From: an uncultured Merdimonas sp.
Lineage (GTDB): Bacteria; Bacillota; Clostridia; Lachnospirales; Lachnospiraceae
Reading direction: 5' to 3'
Length of the DNA stretch: 33,830 nucleotides
Assembly: GCA_944378225.1 (NCBI GenBank)
Contig: CALWGE010000003.1
Coordinates: forward strand, 69,455 to 103,284
The notes under the pieces were generated by a model that was not told the origin of the DNA, made no database searches, and saw nothing but the letters and a program-made list of their open reading frames with translations. Position 1 is the stretch's first letter. Each line of letters opens with the position of its first letter. The position numbers were made by a program, and so were the translations under genes. This document shows, one piece after another, positions 871 to 8,507 of the stretch.

Positions 871-2637
871 ATGAACGGGAAAAAGAAGAGAAAAAAACTG
901 ATAGCTGTACTGGTGGTGATTGTACTTCTGGTGATGGCCGTTCCTGCGGTGGTCATGTATATCGGTAAGTCTTTTACGGCAAAAGAGACAGAAGTGCGTA
1001 CGGACTGGACAATGGATGTGGGAGATGTCATTGACCGGAACGAAGAAATGCAGGTGGAGTATGCCGAGGCAGAGCTGGGAGATGGTATCCGGGCTCTTCA
1101 GCTGGTTCCGATGGATATGGAAGAGGAAGGTTTTACTTACTATGACATCTCTGTACAGGACAGGCTGGAGGGAGCACTGGAAGCGCTGAAATATAACGGC
1201 ATGGAATGGACGGCTGAGAGACCTCTTGCGGTTCTTAATCCTTATGGAACAGGAAGCAATGGTCTGTATCTTTATTTTGAAACAGAGGGAAACCGTGAGG
1301 TAAGTTATACGATCCATGTAGAGGACGAGACAATTCCGGATTTCACAAGAACAGCTGCAGAGGACGGAGAAAGCAGCTACTCCAAATCCCATGAGATTCA
1401 GATTATTGGACTGGTGCCGGGCATGAAGAATGAGGTAACTCTGACATTGTCCGGATCCTGGGGAAATGTGCGTCAGACTGTACATTTTACGGTAGATATG
1501 CCTGAGACACAGTCCGGCTATCCGGTGCAGCTGGAATACACAGATGGAGATTCAGATGCTGAGCCTGCAGAGGGTCTGTATACGATGATGCGAATCAATG
1601 GTCATCTGGGATACAGTTTTTTCTTTGATGACGAAGGAGTGCTGCGCTATGAGATGGTTCTCGAGGGCTATGGACCGGATCGTATTCTGTTTGACGGAGA
1701 TGATATCATTACCTGTGTATCCAGTGGAAAACTGGCCCGGATTAATGGAATCGGGCAGGTAGAGCAGATTTACAAACTGGGCGGCTATGTGCTTCATCAT
1801 GATATTGGTTTTGGCAGGGAAGGAGAAATTCTGGCTCTGGCAGAGGTGGAAGGCGCAGAAAATGTAGAGGATCAGCTGATCTCCATTGATATGGAGAGCG
1901 GAAAAGTGACCTGCCTGATCGATTTTACAGAAACTATGTCAGGGTATTATGAAATGACCCGTCCCATTCGTGCTACGGACACCTTTTTCTGGCAGGCAGG
2001 TGAGTGGGATTGGATTCATCTGAACAGTCTGGAGTATCTGGAGGAGGAGGACAGCCTGATCGTGTCTTCCAGAGAGACATCCGCCATTATCAAGCTGGAA
2101 CATATCCATGAGGATCCGGAGGTGTCCTGGATTGCAGGAGATTCCCGGTTCTGGGAAGATACGCCCTACGCGGAATACTGTCTGGAGCAGGAAGGAGATT
2201 TTGTTCCGCAGTACGGACAGCACTGTGTAGAGTATTTGCGGGCAGGAGAGGAAGAAGGCGTCTACTACCTGTCGCTGTACAATAATAATTACTGGTGCCT
2301 GAACAGCCGCGATGATTTTGAAATGGATGTGGCAGAGACGGTAGGAACGGATCTGTATGGACTGGGCGGTGAGACAAGCCAGGTCTATGTTTACAGAATC
2401 GATGAGAATGCAGGAACTTTTTCTCTGGAAGAGTCTTTTGATGTACCTTATTCCAGCATTGTTTCCAACGGTTCTCCGTGTGGAACAGAAGGCAACTGGA
2501 TTGTAAACAGCGGTGTGTCAAAAGTGTTCGGAGAGTACGATGCTGACGGAGTGCTCATCAGGGAGTTTGCATATGAGTGCGATATGCAGAATTACCGGAC
2601 TTTCAAATATGATTATACAGGTTTTTGGTTCGGATAG
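871..2637 (+). CDS. Membrane-anchored arylsulfate sulfotransferase (ASST family)
   Basis: This 588-residue protein has a basic N-terminus (KKKRKK) and one hydrophobic segment at about residues 10-31, with no lipobox, so it is probably a membrane-anchored extracytoplasmic enzyme. The N-terminal part (about 40-210) resembles the beta-sandwich lead-in domain of ASST proteins and the rest the six-bladed propeller. The active-site pattern is visible: HHD at 309-311, DWIHLNS with H383, R401 in SSRE, and GQH with H451, the position of the sulfated histidine in characterised enzymes. ASST moves sulfate between phenolic compounds without PAPS. A GAAAGGGAAAAGGG ribosome site precedes the ATG. The next gene starts 36 nt downstream, so they may be co-transcribed. 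The family call is strong; the natural donor is unknown. Confidence 0.88.
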   Translation: MNGKKKRKKLIAVLVVIVLLVMAVPAVVMYIGKSFTAKETEVRTDWTMDVGDVIDRNEEMQVEYAEAELGDGIRALQLVPMDMEEEGFTYYDISVQDRLEGALEALKYNGMEWTAERPLAVLNPYGTGSNGLYLYFETEGNREVSYTIHVEDETIPDFTRTAAEDGESSYSKSHEIQIIGLVPGMKNEVTLTLSGSWGNVRQTVHFTVDMPETQSGYPVQLEYTDGDSDAEPAEGLYTMMRINGHLGYSFFFDDEGVLRYEMVLEGYGPDRILFDGDDIITCVSSGKLARINGIGQVEQIYKLGGYVLHHDIGFGREGEILALAEVEGAENVEDQLISIDMESGKVTCLIDFTETMSGYYEMTRPIRATDTFFWQAGEWDWIHLNSLEYLEEEDSLIVSSRETSAIIKLEHIHEDPEVSWIAGDSRFWEDTPYAEYCLEQEGDFVPQYGQHCVEYLRAGEEEGVYYLSLYNNNYWCLNSRDDFEMDVAETVGTDLYGLGGETSQVYVYRIDENAGTFSLEESFDVPYSSIVSNGSPCGTEGNWIVNSGVSKVFGEYDADGVLIREFAYECDMQNYRTFKYDYTGFWFG

Positions 2638-2673
2638 AGAATCATTTCGGGCAGAAAGGTAAAATACAGAGAT

Positions 2674-3969
2674 ATGGAAAAGACAGATATCAGATATCAG
2701 ACTTATCTTAAAATACTGCAGGAGGAGCTGGTACCGGCCATGGGCTGTACGGAGCCCATTGCTCTGGCCTATGCGGCTGCAGAAGCCAGAAAAGTACTTG
2801 GCGCCTTTCCTGAAAATGTAAAAATCGAGGTCAGCGGAAGTATTATCAAAAATGTGAAAAGCGTCATTGTACCGAATACTAATCATATGAAAGGAATCCC
2901 CGCCGCCGCTGCTGCAGGAATTATAGCCGGCCGTCCGGAAAGGGAGCTGGAGGTAATCTCTGAAGTCACAGACGGCGAGCGGGAAGAGATTCGAAGATTT
3001 CTGGAAAATGTTAAAATCAGTGTGGAACATGTGGAGACCGGACATGTATTTGACATTACTGTTACAGAAGCCTGCGGCGAAGAGTATGCGAAGGTCCGTA
3101 TAGTCGACAGACATACCAACATTGTTTTGATTGAAAAAAACGGACAGATACTTTTCCGGAAGGAACTGGAGGAGGCACCTGCGGAAAACCATGCAGACAG
3201 AAGTCTGCTGAATATGCAGGATATCTGGGAGTTTGTTCAGACAGCAGATACAGAAGATGTAAAGGAACTTCTGGAAAGACAGATTCGATATAATTCCGCC
3301 ATCGCGGAAGAAGGCCTTCTGGGAGACTATGGGGCAAATATCGGCAGTGTTCTGCTGCGCACGTATGGAAGCGATATCCGGACAAGGGCAAAAGCCAAGG
3401 CTGCCGCAGGTTCTGATGCGCGTATGAATGGCTGTGAGATGCCCGTTATTATAAATTCAGGAAGCGGTAATCAGGGAATTACCTGCTCTGTACCGGTTAT
3501 TGAATATGCGAAAGATCTGGGATCAGGGAAAGAAAAGCTTTACAGAGCGCTGCTTCTTTCAAATCTGACAGCAATTCATCAGAAATCGGAAATCGGAACA
3601 CTGTCCGCCTACTGCGGAGCAGTAAGCGCAGGAGCCGGTGCGGGAGCAGGCATCGCTTATCTGTGCGGAGGCGGGTATCAGGAAATCATCCACACGATTG
3701 TAAATGCTCTGGCTATAGTTTCGGGCATTGTGTGCGACGGGGCAAAGGCATCCTGCGCAGCTAAAATTTCCGCTTCAGTGGATGCAGGAATTCTGGGGTA
3801 TCAGATGTATCTGAATGGTCAGGAATTCAAAGGCGGAGACGGAATTGTAATGAACGATATAGAGGCAACGATTCGGGGTATCGGTCATCTCGGAAAAGAG
3901 GGAATGAAAGGTACCAATGAAGAGATCATAAAGCTGATGATTCAGGGGAGTTCAGAAAAAAAATATTGA
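2674..3969 (+). CDS. cyuA: L-cysteine desulfidase / serine dehydratase-like Fe-S enzyme (CyuA/UPF0597 family)
   Basis: The protein is 431 residues, the usual length of the family. It opens with the hallmark GCTEP motif (C25) and has further conserved cysteines at C271 (NQGITC), C314 (SAYCGA), C354 and C361 (CDGAKASCAAK) that fit a [4Fe-4S] cluster used as a Lewis acid. Members release sulfide, pyruvate and ammonia from L-cysteine, or deaminate L-serine. The C-terminal half is very rich in Gly and Ala, as in the alpha-type serine dehydratase fold. It lies 36 nt after the sulfotransferase gene, so a shared sulfur theme is possible but unproven. Its stop codon lies inside the -35 box of the next promoter. 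Substrate preference between cysteine and serine cannot be read from sequence. Confidence 0.85.
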   Translation: MEKTDIRYQTYLKILQEELVPAMGCTEPIALAYAAAEARKVLGAFPENVKIEVSGSIIKNVKSVIVPNTNHMKGIPAAAAAGIIAGRPERELEVISEVTDGEREEIRRFLENVKISVEHVETGHVFDITVTEACGEEYAKVRIVDRHTNIVLIEKNGQILFRKELEEAPAENHADRSLLNMQDIWEFVQTADTEDVKELLERQIRYNSAIAEEGLLGDYGANIGSVLLRTYGSDIRTRAKAKAAAGSDARMNGCEMPVIINSGSGNQGITCSVPVIEYAKDLGSGKEKLYRALLLSNLTAIHQKSEIGTLSAYCGAVSAGAGAGAGIAYLCGGGYQEIIHTIVNALAIVSGIVCDGAKASCAAKISASVDAGILGYQMYLNGQEFKGGDGIVMNDIEATIRGIGHLGKEGMKGTNEEIIKLMIQGSSEKKY

Positions 3970-3994
3970 CGTTGTTCAGATTATTGTATATAAT
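3966..3994 (+). promoter_or_regulatory. Strong sigma-A promoter for the pot operon leader
   Basis: TTGACG (3966-3971), a 17-nt spacer and a perfect TATAAT (3989-3994). The -35 box overlaps the stop codon of the preceding desulfidase gene. Transcription would begin near 4001, right at the 5' arm of the leader structure. Confidence 0.85.
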
Positions 3995-4000
3995 CGAGAA

Positions 4001-4143
4001 TGCGGAGGAACACAGGAGAACTGTGGGATGAAAAAGAACTCCGCCTAATATGGTGGTTTCGCCTGTGGATGGGCGGAGGTCATTGGTTAGTAGAAGCACA
4101 TAGGACGGGAAAGTCAGTAAAGCTTTCTCCCGTCCTATTTTTT
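4001..4143 (+). ncRNA. Structured leader RNA / candidate riboswitch upstream of potD
   Basis: The predicted transcript starts at about 4001 and folds into GCGGAG (4002-4007) paired with CTCCGC (4039-4044), enclosing a CACAG-GAGAA-CTGTG hairpin (4011-4025) and an asymmetric internal loop (GGATGAAAAAGAA). The same CTCCGCC (4039-4045) can instead pair with GGCGGAG (4072-4078) around a small GGTG/CGCC hairpin, so two folds exclude each other. CACAGG (4011-4016) can likewise pair with CCTGTG (4062-4067). A terminator hairpin follows. This is the layout of an attenuator, riboswitch or small RNA. I could not match it to a known riboswitch class; similarity to c-di-GMP-I is superficial. The downstream genes suggest a polyamine or nitrogen signal, but that is inference. 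Confidence 0.55.
4101..4143 (+). terminator. Intrinsic terminator between leader and potD
   Basis: TAGGACGGGA (4101-4110) pairs with TCCCGTCCTA (4128-4137), followed by six T (4138-4143); an inner AAAG/CTTT pair extends the stem. It sits after a promoter and 44 nt before potD, so it probably works as an attenuator. It could also end read-through from the upstream gene. Confidence 0.88.
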
Positions 4144-4187
4144 GTGCAGGTAAAACCATCTATGAAAACGAAGAGGAGAATGAATGG

Positions 4188-5246
4188 ATGAAAAAGAAAG
4201 GTGTTGTTTTAGGGCTGATTGCCGCTTTGTGTATGGCAGTGATGTCCGGCTGTGGAGGGAAAGATGACAGCGGAGAGAAACTGTACATTTATAACTGGAC
4301 AGAATATATTCCTCAGGAAGTCTATGATGCCTTTGAGGAAGAGACAGGTATTGAAGTAATCGAGACCACTTTTTCTTCCAATGAAGAGATGCTTGCGAAG
4401 CTGACAGCAGGCGGTACAGAACAGTACGATATGGTAGTTGCCAGCAATTATGTTATCAAGGCAATGCAGGAGCAGGGGCTGATACAGGAGCTTGACAAGA
4501 CGCAGCTTGAAAACCTTGGAAATATCAGCGATACGGCGCTGGGCATGGACTTTGATCCGGAAAATCAGTATTCCATTCCGTTTATGGGCGGAATCACTGT
4601 CATTGCTTATAATACAAAGTTATGTCAGGAACTGGGTGTGACCATTGAAAAGTTTGATGATCTTCTGAATCCGGCTCTGGAGAATAATATTGTAGTTGTG
4701 GACGATGTGCGTGAAATCGTGGGAATTGCCCTGAAGGCACAGGGACAGGATTCCAATACGACGGACCAGGCGGTAATTGAAGGAACACTTCCCTGGCTGG
4801 AGCAGCTCGTACCAAACATTAAGGCGTATGACAGTGACAGCCCGAAGACTTTGCTGGCTTCCAATGAAGTAGCGGTAGGCGTGGTGTATAATATTGATGC
4901 AGGAATGGCTATCAATGAGAATCCTGACGTGGATGTGCTTTTTACAGAAGAGCCCTGCGAGATGTCCATGGACAATTTTGTACTGACTTCCAAGGCAAAG
5001 AATGTTGATAATGCCATGAAGTTCATTGATTTTGTGCATCGTCCTGAAATTTATAAAATGATTCTGGATGTATTTCCGGGAGTATGTGTGAATGACGCAG
5101 CCCTGGAGATTATGGATGCGCGTTATCTGGAAAATCCGGGAAGCAACGTGGATCAGTCTGAGATCGCCCGTGCAAATCTGATTGAAGAAGTAGGCGATGC
5201 AGTTACTTATTACGACGATGTATTTACAAAGATGAAAACCAACTAG
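4188..5246 (+). CDS. potD: Spermidine/putrescine ABC transporter, substrate-binding lipoprotein PotD
   Basis: The 352-residue protein has a lipoprotein signal with lipobox MSGC and lipid-bearing C22. The mature N-terminus carries the PotD/PotF signature LYIYNWTEYIP (W37, Y40), followed by the two-lobed periplasmic-binding fold with FMGGITVIAYN and a C-terminal DNFVLTSKAKN region. It captures polyamines outside the membrane for PotABC. An AGGAG site at 4174-4178 lies 9 nt before this ATG; an earlier ATG at 4180 is in another frame and stops after three codons. It is the first gene after the terminator-bearing leader, so its expression probably depends on read-through. Spermidine versus putrescine cannot be decided from what I see. 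Confidence 0.93.
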   Translation: MKKKGVVLGLIAALCMAVMSGCGGKDDSGEKLYIYNWTEYIPQEVYDAFEEETGIEVIETTFSSNEEMLAKLTAGGTEQYDMVVASNYVIKAMQEQGLIQELDKTQLENLGNISDTALGMDFDPENQYSIPFMGGITVIAYNTKLCQELGVTIEKFDDLLNPALENNIVVVDDVREIVGIALKAQGQDSNTTDQAVIEGTLPWLEQLVPNIKAYDSDSPKTLLASNEVAVGVVYNIDAGMAINENPDVDVLFTEEPCEMSMDNFVLTSKAKNVDNAMKFIDFVHRPEIYKMILDVFPGVCVNDAALEIMDARYLENPGSNVDQSEIARANLIEEVGDAVTYYDDVFTKMKTN

Positions 5247-5275: not shown

Positions 5276-5614
5276 ATGAAAAAGATAGAAATTATAACAA
5301 GACCTGATAAACTGGATATCATCAAAAAGATACTGGCTCAGAATGAGTATTCGGGTATGACGGTGACTGCGGCTATGGGCTGCGGCCGTCAGAAGGCGGA
5401 CGCCAAGGATTTTGAAGAACTGAATCTGGAAATGAATCTTCTGCCGAAGATTCACGTCATGACGGTAGTGTGGGATGAGGATCTGGAAGAAATTCTGCTG
5501 GAACTTCAGCAGAAACTGACTACGGGAAGCGTAGGAGACGGAAAGATCTTTATTTCAACCATTGATGATGTGGTCAGAATCAGAACAGGGGAGCGCGGAT
5601 ACAAGACCCTGTAA
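5276..5614 (+). CDS. PII-like signal protein in polyamine transporter operon (PotN-like?)
   Basis: The 112-residue protein is the length of GlnB/GlnK and keeps the PII core: MKKIEIITRP start, GMTVT at 27-31, G37-R38-Q39-K40 opening the T-loop, K58, the B-loop TGSVGDGKIF and the C-terminal RIRTGERG. The T-loop is not canonical: the uridylylated tyrosine region (ELYRGAEY in GlnB) is replaced by an acidic DFEELNLEMN stretch, with Leu at position 51. It therefore cannot be modified there in the usual way. It sits between potD and potA, spaced 29 and 17 nt, so the transporter is its likely partner rather than AmtB. A PII-like family called PotN has been described next to polyamine ABC genes in Firmicutes (from memory); this is a likely member. 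Ligands (ATP, ADP, 2-oxoglutarate) are unknown. Confidence 0.85.
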   Translation: MKKIEIITRPDKLDIIKKILAQNEYSGMTVTAAMGCGRQKADAKDFEELNLEMNLLPKIHVMTVVWDEDLEEILLELQQKLTTGSVGDGKIFISTIDDVVRIRTGERGYKTL

Positions 5615-5631: not shown

Positions 5632-6783
5632 ATGAACAAGACGCAGGGAAACGATGTAATTGTCCGGATTTCGGATGTGGATAAAAGTTTTGACGGTGAG
5701 CGTGTTGTTAAAAAACTGAATCTGGATGTGGAAAGAGGAGAGTTTCTGACCATGCTGGGGCCATCCGGCTGTGGAAAAACCACGACGCTTCGGATGATTG
5801 CCGGCTTTGAGGTGCCCACGTCAGGACAGATTTTTCTGGAAGGAGAAGATGTGGATGACAAGAAGCCATATGAGCGCAATGTCAACACTGTATTTCAGAA
5901 TTATGCTCTGTTTCCTCATATGAATGTATTTGATAATATTGCGTTCGGACTGGTGGAGAAAAAGGTAAAAAAAGATGAAATCCGCCGCAGGGTTGAGGAG
6001 ATGATCCGTCTGGTACAGCTGGATGGTATGGAGAAAAGAATGCCGGCACAGATGTCAGGCGGACAGAAACAGAGAGTGGCTATTGCCCGCGCGCTGGTGA
6101 ATCGTCCGAAAGTATTGCTTCTTGATGAACCGCTGGGGGCTCTTGACCTGAAACTGCGTAAACAGATGCAGGGAGAGCTGAAGGCTCTTCAGCGCCGTCT
6201 GGGAATTACATTTATCTATGTTACCCATGATCAGGAAGAAGCACTGACCATGAGCGATCGGATTGCTGTTATGAACCGGGGACGTCTGGAGCAGGTAGGT
6301 ACGCCTGAGCAGGTATATAATCATCCGGAAACTAAATTTGTGGCAGATTTTATCGGAGAGTCCAATATTATTGAAGGATATGTGGAAAATATGACGGAGG
6401 ACAGTATTGAAGTTACCATGGAGTCCGGAAAAGCAGTAATTCCGGAGACTGGATACCGCATGGAAGAGATGGTATATCTCTGTATCCGTCCGGAGAATCT
6501 GAAAATTTCCACAGAAGAGAAGGAAGGTTTCCGTTTCCGCGGACAGGTACGGGAGCATATATTTATCGGTTCTACGAATAAAACCATGATTGAGATGCCG
6601 AACGGACAGATGCTGAAATCAGTGACTCCCGCAGAAGATGAACTGATTCCGACAGGTACAACGGTCAATGTATACTGGAACCCGGGAAAAGCCGTAGTCA
6701 TGCGGACGAAGGAAGAGCAGATTTACAATGTGATCGAGCAGTCTGTAGAGATAGAGGGAATGAGAAATGATCAGATCTTTTAA
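5632..6783 (+). CDS. potA: Spermidine/putrescine ABC transporter, ATP-binding protein PotA
   Basis: The 383-residue ATPase has Walker A GPSGCGKT (43-50), Q-loop Q88, ABC signature MSGGQKQ (140-146), Walker B LLLDEP (161-166), the D-loop GALD and the switch histidine in VTHDQEEA. Residues from about 240 form a TOBE-type regulatory domain typical of PotA/MalK-like ATPases. It energises the PotB-PotC channel on the cytoplasmic side. Its start has a clear AGGAGG ribosome site, and its end overlaps the start of potB by 17 nt, which points to coupled translation. It directly follows the PII-like gene, making the nucleotide-binding subunit a plausible target of that regulator. Confidence 0.94.
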   Translation: MNKTQGNDVIVRISDVDKSFDGERVVKKLNLDVERGEFLTMLGPSGCGKTTTLRMIAGFEVPTSGQIFLEGEDVDDKKPYERNVNTVFQNYALFPHMNVFDNIAFGLVEKKVKKDEIRRRVEEMIRLVQLDGMEKRMPAQMSGGQKQRVAIARALVNRPKVLLLDEPLGALDLKLRKQMQGELKALQRRLGITFIYVTHDQEEALTMSDRIAVMNRGRLEQVGTPEQVYNHPETKFVADFIGESNIIEGYVENMTEDSIEVTMESGKAVIPETGYRMEEMVYLCIRPENLKISTEEKEGFRFRGQVREHIFIGSTNKTMIEMPNGQMLKSVTPAEDELIPTGTTVNVYWNPGKAVVMRTKEEQIYNVIEQSVEIEGMRNDQIF

Positions 6784-7621
6784 GAAGCGTATCGGCGCTC
6801 TGGTTACAGTGGGTCCGACTATGCTCTGGCTCGGACTTTTTCTGATGATACCGCTGGTTTATGTGATAGGGATGAGTTTCCTGACGAAAAATGCTTACGG
6901 AGGCGTGGATTTTAAATTTACACTTTCCAATTACAGCGCTCTTTTCAGCAAAGAATATGTGAAAGTTTTTGCGGATTCTCTGTGGCTGTCTCTGGAGACT
7001 ACGATTATTTGTCTGATAGTCGGATACCCGTTTGCCTATATCATTGCCAATGCTCCCAAAAAGTGGAAGCCTGCGCTGGTTCTGCTGCTGATGCTGCCCT
7101 TCTGGACCAATTCATTGATTCGAACCTATGGGTGGAATACTCTGCTGCGTACAGAAGGAATTATCAATCATTTTCTGCAGGGAATCGGTCTGATTGACAA
7201 GCCTCTGAATATGCTGTATACAGACGGAGCCGTTCTGCTTGGTATGGTTTACGCGCTGCTGCCATTTACGGTGCTGCCGCTTCATACCTCAATTGAAAAG
7301 CTGGACAAATCGCTTCTGGAAGCTTCCAGTGATTTGGGCGCATCCAGAGTTCACACATTTATAAGAGTTATTCTTCCCCTGACGATGCCCGGTATTTTTG
7401 CCGGTTCGATTCAGACTTTTATTCCGTCTCTGGGATTCTTTTTCATTTCGGATATGATGGGCGGAGCAAAGACCATGTATATTGGTAATCTGATCAAGAA
7501 TCAGTTTCTGTCGGCCAGAAACTGGCCTTTGGGAGCAGTGCTTTCGATAGTGCTGATTGTGATTACACTGGTTCTGATGAAGCTGTATACACGGGTGGGA
7601 AGTCTGGAAGATATGGCGTAA
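6767..7621 (+). CDS. potB: Spermidine/putrescine ABC transporter permease PotB
   Basis: A 284-residue integral membrane protein with about six hydrophobic segments and the ABC-permease EAA motif (EASSDLGASRVHTF, from about residue 185) that contacts the ATPase. LPFWTNSLIRTYGW before it is typical of PotB. The ATG lies inside the end of potA, with a GAGGG ribosome site 8 nt before it. It forms the membrane channel with PotC. Confidence 0.93.
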   Translation: MIRSFKKRIGALVTVGPTMLWLGLFLMIPLVYVIGMSFLTKNAYGGVDFKFTLSNYSALFSKEYVKVFADSLWLSLETTIICLIVGYPFAYIIANAPKKWKPALVLLLMLPFWTNSLIRTYGWNTLLRTEGIINHFLQGIGLIDKPLNMLYTDGAVLLGMVYALLPFTVLPLHTSIEKLDKSLLEASSDLGASRVHTFIRVILPLTMPGIFAGSIQTFIPSLGFFFISDMMGGAKTMYIGNLIKNQFLSARNWPLGAVLSIVLIVITLVLMKLYTRVGSLEDMA

Positions 7622-7706: not shown

Positions 7707-8507
7707 GTGGAGAAACGCAGGAAAATCAGAGAATTTAAGCCGGGCAGCGTGTTTTATGCCTGTCTGGTTTACCTGTTTTTGTATCTGCCCATCTTTGTGG
7801 TAATTGCATTTTCATTTAACACTTCAGAGATGAATATTACCTTTCAGGGCTTTACGTTCGAATGGTACGGGCGGATGTTTGAAAACCGGCAGCTGATGCA
7901 GTCTTTTGTCAACACGATCATTGTGGCCGCATCCAGCACGGTGCTTTCCGTTATTATCGGAACGCTGTGTGCTTTGGGCCTTTATAAATTTGAATTTAAA
8001 CTGAAAAATATGATCAGCAGTTCTCTTTATATTCCGATTGTGATTCCGGAACTGGTATTTGCCATTGCTCTGCTGATTTTCTTTTCGTCAATTCATGTGA
8101 GCATGAGCATGATTACGCTGATCATTGCCCATGTAACGTTTTCGATGCCCTTTGTGGTTATTACTGTGCGTGCCAGACTGGCAGGCTTTGACAAATCAAT
8201 TGAGGAGGCTGCCAGAGATCTGGGCGCCAATGAGATTCGGACCTTTTTCCGGGTAACTCTTCCTATGATTTCTCCTGGCGTCATTTCCGGAGGCATGCTG
8301 GCTCTGACCATGTCTCTTGACGATGTGGTAGTCAGCTTTTTCACGGCAGGTCCGGAGAGCCAGACTCTGCCTCTGAAAATTCTGGGTATGGTACGAAAAG
8401 GAGTCTCACCGGATGTCAATGCCCTGTCTACGCTGATGATTCTGGGAACGGTTGTGATCCTGTTGACGGCTACGGTGATTCAGGGTAAACTGGAGAAAAA
8501 GATGTAA
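7707..8507 (+). CDS. potC: Spermidine/putrescine ABC transporter permease PotC
   Basis: A 266-residue permease with about six transmembrane segments. The EAA loop (EEAARDLGANEIRTFFRV) begins at about residue 165, and SLDDVVVSFFTAGP near the C-terminus is characteristic of PotC/PotI. Translation starts at GTG, set by an AAGGAGAG site six nt upstream; no in-frame ATG gives a better start. It pairs with PotB to form the transmembrane pore. Confidence 0.93.
   Translation: MEKRRKIREFKPGSVFYACLVYLFLYLPIFVVIAFSFNTSEMNITFQGFTFEWYGRMFENRQLMQSFVNTIIVAASSTVLSVIIGTLCALGLYKFEFKLKNMISSSLYIPIVIPELVFAIALLIFFSSIHVSMSMITLIIAHVTFSMPFVVITVRARLAGFDKSIEEAARDLGANEIRTFFRVTLPMISPGVISGGMLALTMSLDDVVVSFFTAGPESQTLPLKILGMVRKGVSPDVNALSTLMILGTVVILLTATVIQGKLEKKM

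Follow-up and report, generated by a model that had tools for sequence, protein, structure and literature searches.

The window, a stretch of 33,830 nt from an uncultured Merdimonas sp., carries an operon of five genes (potD, a PII gene, potA and potB- and potC-like genes), which is preceded by a promoter and by a structured leader RNA that ends in a terminator. All features lie on the forward strand:

3966..3994, + strand: sigma-70-type promoter, TTGACG-17-TATAAT (11 of 12 consensus positions)
4001..4143, + strand: leader RNA, whole element (match to covariance model R1, 132 bits)
4002..4007, + strand: 5' strand of helix P1, GCGGAG, pairing with 4039-4044 (changes on both sides in three of six pairs)
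4030..4038, + strand: A-rich stretch GAAAAAGAA in the P1 loop, largely conserved in the alignments
4039..4044, + strand: 3' strand of P1, CTCCGC (covariation, changes on the potD tree)
4045..4056, + strand: 5' strand of helix P2, CTAATATGGTGG (unchanged in 16 of 17 sequences; one change in L040)
4058..4065, + strand: 5' strand of helix P3, pairing with 4070-4077 (four pairs changed on both sides)
4070..4077, + strand: 3' strand of P3, overlapping the GGCGGAG (4072-4078) of the original prediction
4080..4090, + strand: 3' strand of P2, TCATTGGTTAG, invariant in the alignment
4094..4123, + strand: T5, the 5' arm and loop of the terminator, near-invariant in the alignment
4100..4143, + strand: intrinsic terminator with T-run (-19.8 kcal/mol in the window)
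4188..5246, + strand: potD, polyamine-type substrate-binding protein (NCBIfam PotD, 234.6 bits, below the cut-off of 582)
5276..5614, + strand: PII nitrogen-regulatory protein gene (Pfam PF00543, 93.9 bits)
5632..6783, + strand: potA (NCBIfam TIGR01187, 392.2 bits, above the cut-off)
6767..7621, + strand: potB-like permease gene (ORF named by position and similarity)
7707..8507, + strand: potC-like permease gene (ORF named by position and similarity)

The near-consensus promoter originally predicted to fire into a structured RNA is well borne out. Four promoter-like sites were found between 3600 and 4600 (shuffle mean 1.5), the other three scoring 9 of 12, and relatives carry a TTGAC box and TATAAT at the same spacing. 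Transcription probably starts at about 4000-4002, at the 5' strand of P1, and the leader, of approximately 143 nt, occupies the region between promoter and potD. When 149 nt were folded, the leader was more stable than all of 200 shuffles (z -3.73), and its first 103 nt were more stable than 197 of 200 (z -2.78). The strong terminator predicted 44 nt ahead of potD is also there, its T-run ending at 4143, although a simple terminator scan did not flag it. In one relative (L015) the -10 box of the leader promoter sits between the arms of a perfect 12-bp inverted repeat (CCCTCGCACTTT ... AAAGTGCGAGGG), which also overlaps P1; some relatives have imperfect versions, the window has none. This repeat might serve as a DNA operator or simply be a consequence of P1.

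PotD of the window aligns with E. coli PotD structures over nearly its whole length (phmmer). Among spermidine-contacting positions, those in the stretches NWTEY, S.Y, DD.RE and MD are kept, but two tryptophans are replaced, one by the Y of VVYN and the other by the S of EMSM, and the true substrate may therefore differ from spermidine. All five genes follow the RNA in each of the six neighbourhoods examined, and a gene for a GNAT acetyltransferase comes next in five of them. A saccharopine-dehydrogenase-like gene, distant kin of carboxynorspermidine synthase (80.2 bits against a cut-off of 800), is found close to the operon both in the window and in three of six other neighbourhoods (L123, L124 and L125). 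Glycine riboswitches (RF03166) were found beside the pot leader in two genomes of the sister genus g14 (L105, 1005-1240, - strand, 144.7 bits; L040, 1723-1934, + strand, 153.8 bits); they are on the opposite strand to the leader, apparently before a divergent saccharopine-dehydrogenase-like gene. The presence of PII within the operon suggests nitrogen control. The PII protein is 95 to 99% identical across six relatives (L120-L125), and PotD is 74 to 91% identical. A PII gene flanked by potD and potA also occurs where no RNA was detected, in G144 and in G223, whose contig ends early.

When 98 relatives were searched at the DNA level, 17 gave a match, namely all 16 genomes of the window's genus and one g14 genome. 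The covariance model R1, built from 15 leader sequences, detected one copy of the RNA per genome in all 16 members of the genus and in three of the four g14 genomes. The fourth (G449), which is 87% complete, has neither the RNA nor a potD match at E 1e-60. Wider samples were searched with stricter filters and with eight candidates scored per genome, so that weak relatives may be missed; here R1 matched 4 of 397 genomes in the family sample (all g1 or g14), 3 of 392 in the order sample and 1 of 398 in the phylum sample, the last being the window's own genome. The order matches were the window and two weak ones (E 0.007 and 0.015), which on inspection were judged chance resemblances to the terminator in unrelated contexts. 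Each genome of the genus (16 of 16) has a single occurrence of a 25-base T5 pattern when up to three mismatches are allowed. A search with an exact pattern returned 17 records of named genomes, including uncultured Merdimonas sp. MAGs, Candidatus Merdisoma merdipullorum and Lachnoclostridium sp. An138 and An131, and the pattern was absent from the viral contigs searched. Judged by the convincing matches, the RNA is so far confined to two related genera of gut Clostridia, g1 and g14.

The link to potD is close. It is the gene directly downstream of the RNA in 18 of 19 RNA-bearing genomes, and in the 19th (G002) the contig ends. Inspection of the stretch upstream of potD-PII-potA in G144 revealed no such RNA, nor was one present in G223, where potD is 67% identical, in the 188 nt that remain upstream before the contig end. 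The gene immediately upstream of the promoter varies, being serine-dehydratase-like in the window, an arylsulfotransferase gene in L123 and others elsewhere; given these different upstream genes (window 871-3969 and L120-L125), the promoter moves together with the RNA and the operon as a unit. The spacer between RNA and potD contains no promoter-like site in the 16 loci scanned (a count that leaves out L004, which has no spacer, L008 and L017, and takes L040 and L104 as one locus), and potD should thus depend on read-through. In L009 the spacer measures 253 nt and includes a long inverted repeat (CCCTCTCTTGACAAG ... CTTGTCAAGAGAGGG) that may be an insertion.

The transcript of about 143 nt that results from termination might act mainly in trans as a small RNA, with potD served by read-through only. 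An own promoter, an own strong terminator and a frozen loop with frozen single-stranded segments are what such an RNA would have. However, the fixed position directly upstream of potD despite differing genes further upstream, together with the joint absence of RNA and potD from G449, argues against a main role in trans, which is considered rather improbable.

The leader fits no known class, in agreement with the original prediction. Rfam gave no family over the leader when the window was scanned at the gathering score, no riboswitch in the leader at E values up to 10 and, in the loci of seven relatives, no match covering the leader at E values up to 2. The two matches obtained at E ≤ 10, to a nematode snoRNA and a microRNA family (E 6.5 and 9.1), are at chance level, far below their gathering scores. 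A suspected likeness to the c-di-GMP-I riboswitch proved superficial. The window does contain the short look-alike words GTGGGATG and GCCTAA, but GTGGGATG is missing from the second sequence group and the Rfam model was unmatched in the window, in the leader (E ≤ 10) and in the seven relatives (E ≤ 2). A T-box leader was rejected as the Rfam T-box model was unmatched, and a SAM-I/spermidine riboswitch because there was no SAM-I match and the fold consists of P1, P2/P3 and the terminator, not of the four stems of SAM-I. In the literature outside subscription journals and supplements, no published description of the RNA was found; in the main text of PMC11109978 neither polyamine nor putrescine occurs.

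The consensus fold of 17 distinct sequences comprises P1 (4002-4007/4039-4044), P2 closing P3 (4045-4090) and the terminator, and 99.2% of its cells are paired. In this 17-row alignment, which was fitted to the consensus structure and whose covariation counts therefore lean towards it, seven pairs and 27 cells changed on both sides, compared with shuffle means of 3.0 and 7.3 (0 of 500 as high) and with at most one pair and three cells in slid registers of the fold. Further pair types were no more frequent than in shuffles (16 against 15.2; 167 of 500 as high). The alignment is without L004 and L005, whose RNAs equal those of L002 and L003, respectively, and L018-L021 overlap the same places. 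The same fold emerged from an independent MAFFT alignment of 15 sequences, in which five pairs were changed on both sides. On the potD tree, the varying pairs account for two to four changes each in P1 and for one to six in P3. Repeated compensatory changes thus support the helices P1 and P3. The counted pairs of P2 and of the terminator never vary, so that covariation speaks neither for nor against them. P2 has many G-U wobbles and an internal loop, a pattern which appears closer to a binding core than to a plain helix.

These data bear on the mutually exclusive helices of the original prediction, in which CTCCGCC (4039-4045) would alternate between GCGGAG upstream and GGCGGAG (4072-4078) downstream. 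Both complements are present in the window, where the two forms are only 0.9 kcal/mol apart. Covariation among homologous leaders had been the proposed check on both helices, and it is found for the upstream one, GCGGAG/CTCCGC, which is P1. The downstream one, 4039-4045/4072-4078, is not supported. Among the 17 distinct sequences one of its seven pairs is unformed in eight and another in six, and its paired cells (85.7%) do not exceed column shuffles (84.6%; 76 of 500 as high). They do exceed slid registers (37.0 to 57.1%), as is expected when a helix is drawn from one row. When forced, the downstream helix comes within 3 kcal/mol of the P1 form in only two of 17 sequences (the window and L016, at 2.7 kcal/mol) and is 4.1 to 22.4 kcal/mol worse in the other 15. 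Its pair probability reaches at most 0.38 in the window, 0.52 in L016, 0.29 in L014 and 0.00 in the remaining 14; in L014, despite the probability of 0.29, it is 6.1 kcal/mol worse with all possible pairs forced. The cross-complementarity is accounted for by the similarity of the P1 and P3 strands in the window (GCGGAG and GGCGGAG), and GGCGGAG fits better as the 3' strand of P3, with TTTCGCC just upstream as its partner. A switch between these two helices is accordingly very unlikely.

The most conserved part of the leader lies elsewhere. Across the 17 sequences, T5 has one base that differs in two and a 4-nt insertion in one (L017). The 3' arm of the terminator, in contrast, reads CCC, CC, CCA, GCG, GCA or TGG between CTTTCT and GTCCTA. 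Terminator pairing alone would not give such an asymmetry, and the 5' arm probably has a second role beyond the terminator. A 57-nt core, which comprises the P2 strands, the linker and the 5' arm and loop of the terminator up to where the 3' arm begins and was picked after the alignment was seen, is identical to that of the window in nine of ten distant relatives and has one change in the tenth, in a count that ignores gaps such as the insertion in L017. Fourfold-degenerate sites of potD, however, show only 35 to 48% agreement between the window and the same ten relatives. This comparison used 15 loci and excluded L002, L004, L008 and L040; L040 has two changes in the core. The terminator itself is stable throughout (-14.6 to -20.7 kcal/mol in 16 distinct sequences, L040 excluded).

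The alternative hairpin that T5 could form (GC 4096-4097/4122-4123 and GAC 4104-4106/4113-4115) is weak, at only -1.9 to -3.0 kcal/mol, far below the terminator, and pairing of T5 with the conserved upstream blocks was no better than that of shuffled T5 (347, 473 and 288 of 500 as good). No conventional antiterminator is therefore visible.

This would suit a protein-dependent antiterminator, in which an RNA-binding protein holds T5 and/or P2-P3 and so blocks the terminator. BglG/LicT-type and ANTAR proteins act as RNA-binding antiterminators, and the conserved T5 does overlap the 5' arm of the terminator. The sole candidate protein tested was CsrA (PF02599), found in nine of 16 RNA-bearing genomes and absent from the other seven, including the window's own; a CsrA-regulated leader was accordingly rejected. 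ANTAR targets consist of two hairpins with 6-nt loops that have A at position 1 and G at position 4. The conserved 6-nt loop GGGAAA does not fit this rule, the P1 and P3 loops vary and, by inspection, the GGGAAA loop is predicted only without the terminator 3' arm, so an ANTAR-type antiterminator was rejected as well. Control by a protein is unlikely overall, although it deserves some weight.

Coupling of translation to termination has still less in its favour. The leader peptide would be encoded by the ORF at 4050-4103 (MVVSPVDGRRSLVSRST) or that at 4028-4048 (MKKNSA), and 14 of 16 distinct sequences (L040 excluded) keep an open frame running from ATGGTGGTT to the same stop. However, it is out of frame in L002 and has an internal stop in L017, no Shine-Dalgarno-like sequence is seen by inspection just ahead of the ATG of ORF 4050-4103, and ORF 4028-4048 has no ATG in the second sequence group. 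As there is no conserved translated ORF, both a leader-peptide attenuator and an odc1-like uORF were rejected, and attenuation of this kind is extremely improbable.

It is clear that this is a genuine, strongly conserved, lineage-restricted leader RNA with the anatomy of an attenuator. Its riboswitch-type features are a conserved structured domain in the 5' leader, with covariation in P1 and P3, and a terminator as the expression platform. The favoured reading, to which a probability of roughly 0.55 is given, is that the leader acts in cis as a transcription attenuator of the potD-PII-potABC operon and most likely represents a lineage-restricted riboswitch class not yet described. The attenuator or riboswitch of the original prediction is therefore retained as a structured, attenuator-type leader before a polyamine operon, but its alternating helices are not.

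As the terminator far outweighs the T5 hairpin and the 16 spacers scanned contain no promoter-like site, the default state would be OFF: the far more stable terminator would form and transcription would stop. Expression should then need something that holds T5 in another fold. In the ON state, an effector would stabilize a fold joining T5 (4094-4123) with the P1-P2-P3 core; with T5 held there, the terminator would be blocked and RNA polymerase would read on. An effector-bound core of P1, P2-P3 and T5, and hence an ON switch, is the most economical reading. The aptamer-like pattern of variable helices and fixed internal loops modestly favours a small-molecule effector, and riboswitch function of the leader is probable on this comparative evidence. 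A connection of this small molecule with polyamine or nitrogen status is conjecture based on the genes. The complete proposal is more tentative, with odds of around one in three: a new riboswitch class in two related genera of gut Clostridia, whose ligand core includes the 5' arm and loop of the terminator, and in which a ligand, a metabolite of polyamine or nitrogen status, dismantles the terminator to switch the PII/polyamine-importer operon ON. With its compact leader, fixed gene context, clear terminator and near-frozen sequence, the RNA is a directly testable candidate for polyamine or nitrogen sensing. The frozen terminator arm also raises a structural question, namely which fold besides the terminator uses it.

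Known systems offer partial parallels. The pbuE adenine riboswitch is an ON riboswitch with an aptamer that overlaps the terminator. The proposed mechanism would resemble such riboswitches in that a ligand-stabilized fold would sequester the terminator 5' arm, but in Rfam they have no sequence or structure relation to the window RNA. Earlier evidence for polyamine riboswitches is called unconvincing in PMC10853860, where one class of modest affinity is presented. This spermidine riboswitch is described there as a SAM-I variant of four-stem architecture that precedes biosynthesis genes, with 13 examples reported. It is like the window RNA in being a leader with a terminator, in its link to polyamine genes and in its narrow distribution; unlike it, the window RNA precedes an importer operon and has no SAM-I match. 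The potE and odc1 motifs, as outlined in PMC8632094, are likewise candidate structured RNAs upstream of polyamine-related genes, from which the window RNA is set apart by layout as described and by the Rfam scans rather than by direct sequence comparison. The odc1 motif includes a uORF, whereas none is conserved in the window RNA. According to the same source, the potE motif lies approximately 200 nt from its gene and has no obvious expression platform, whereas in the window RNA the terminator directly follows.
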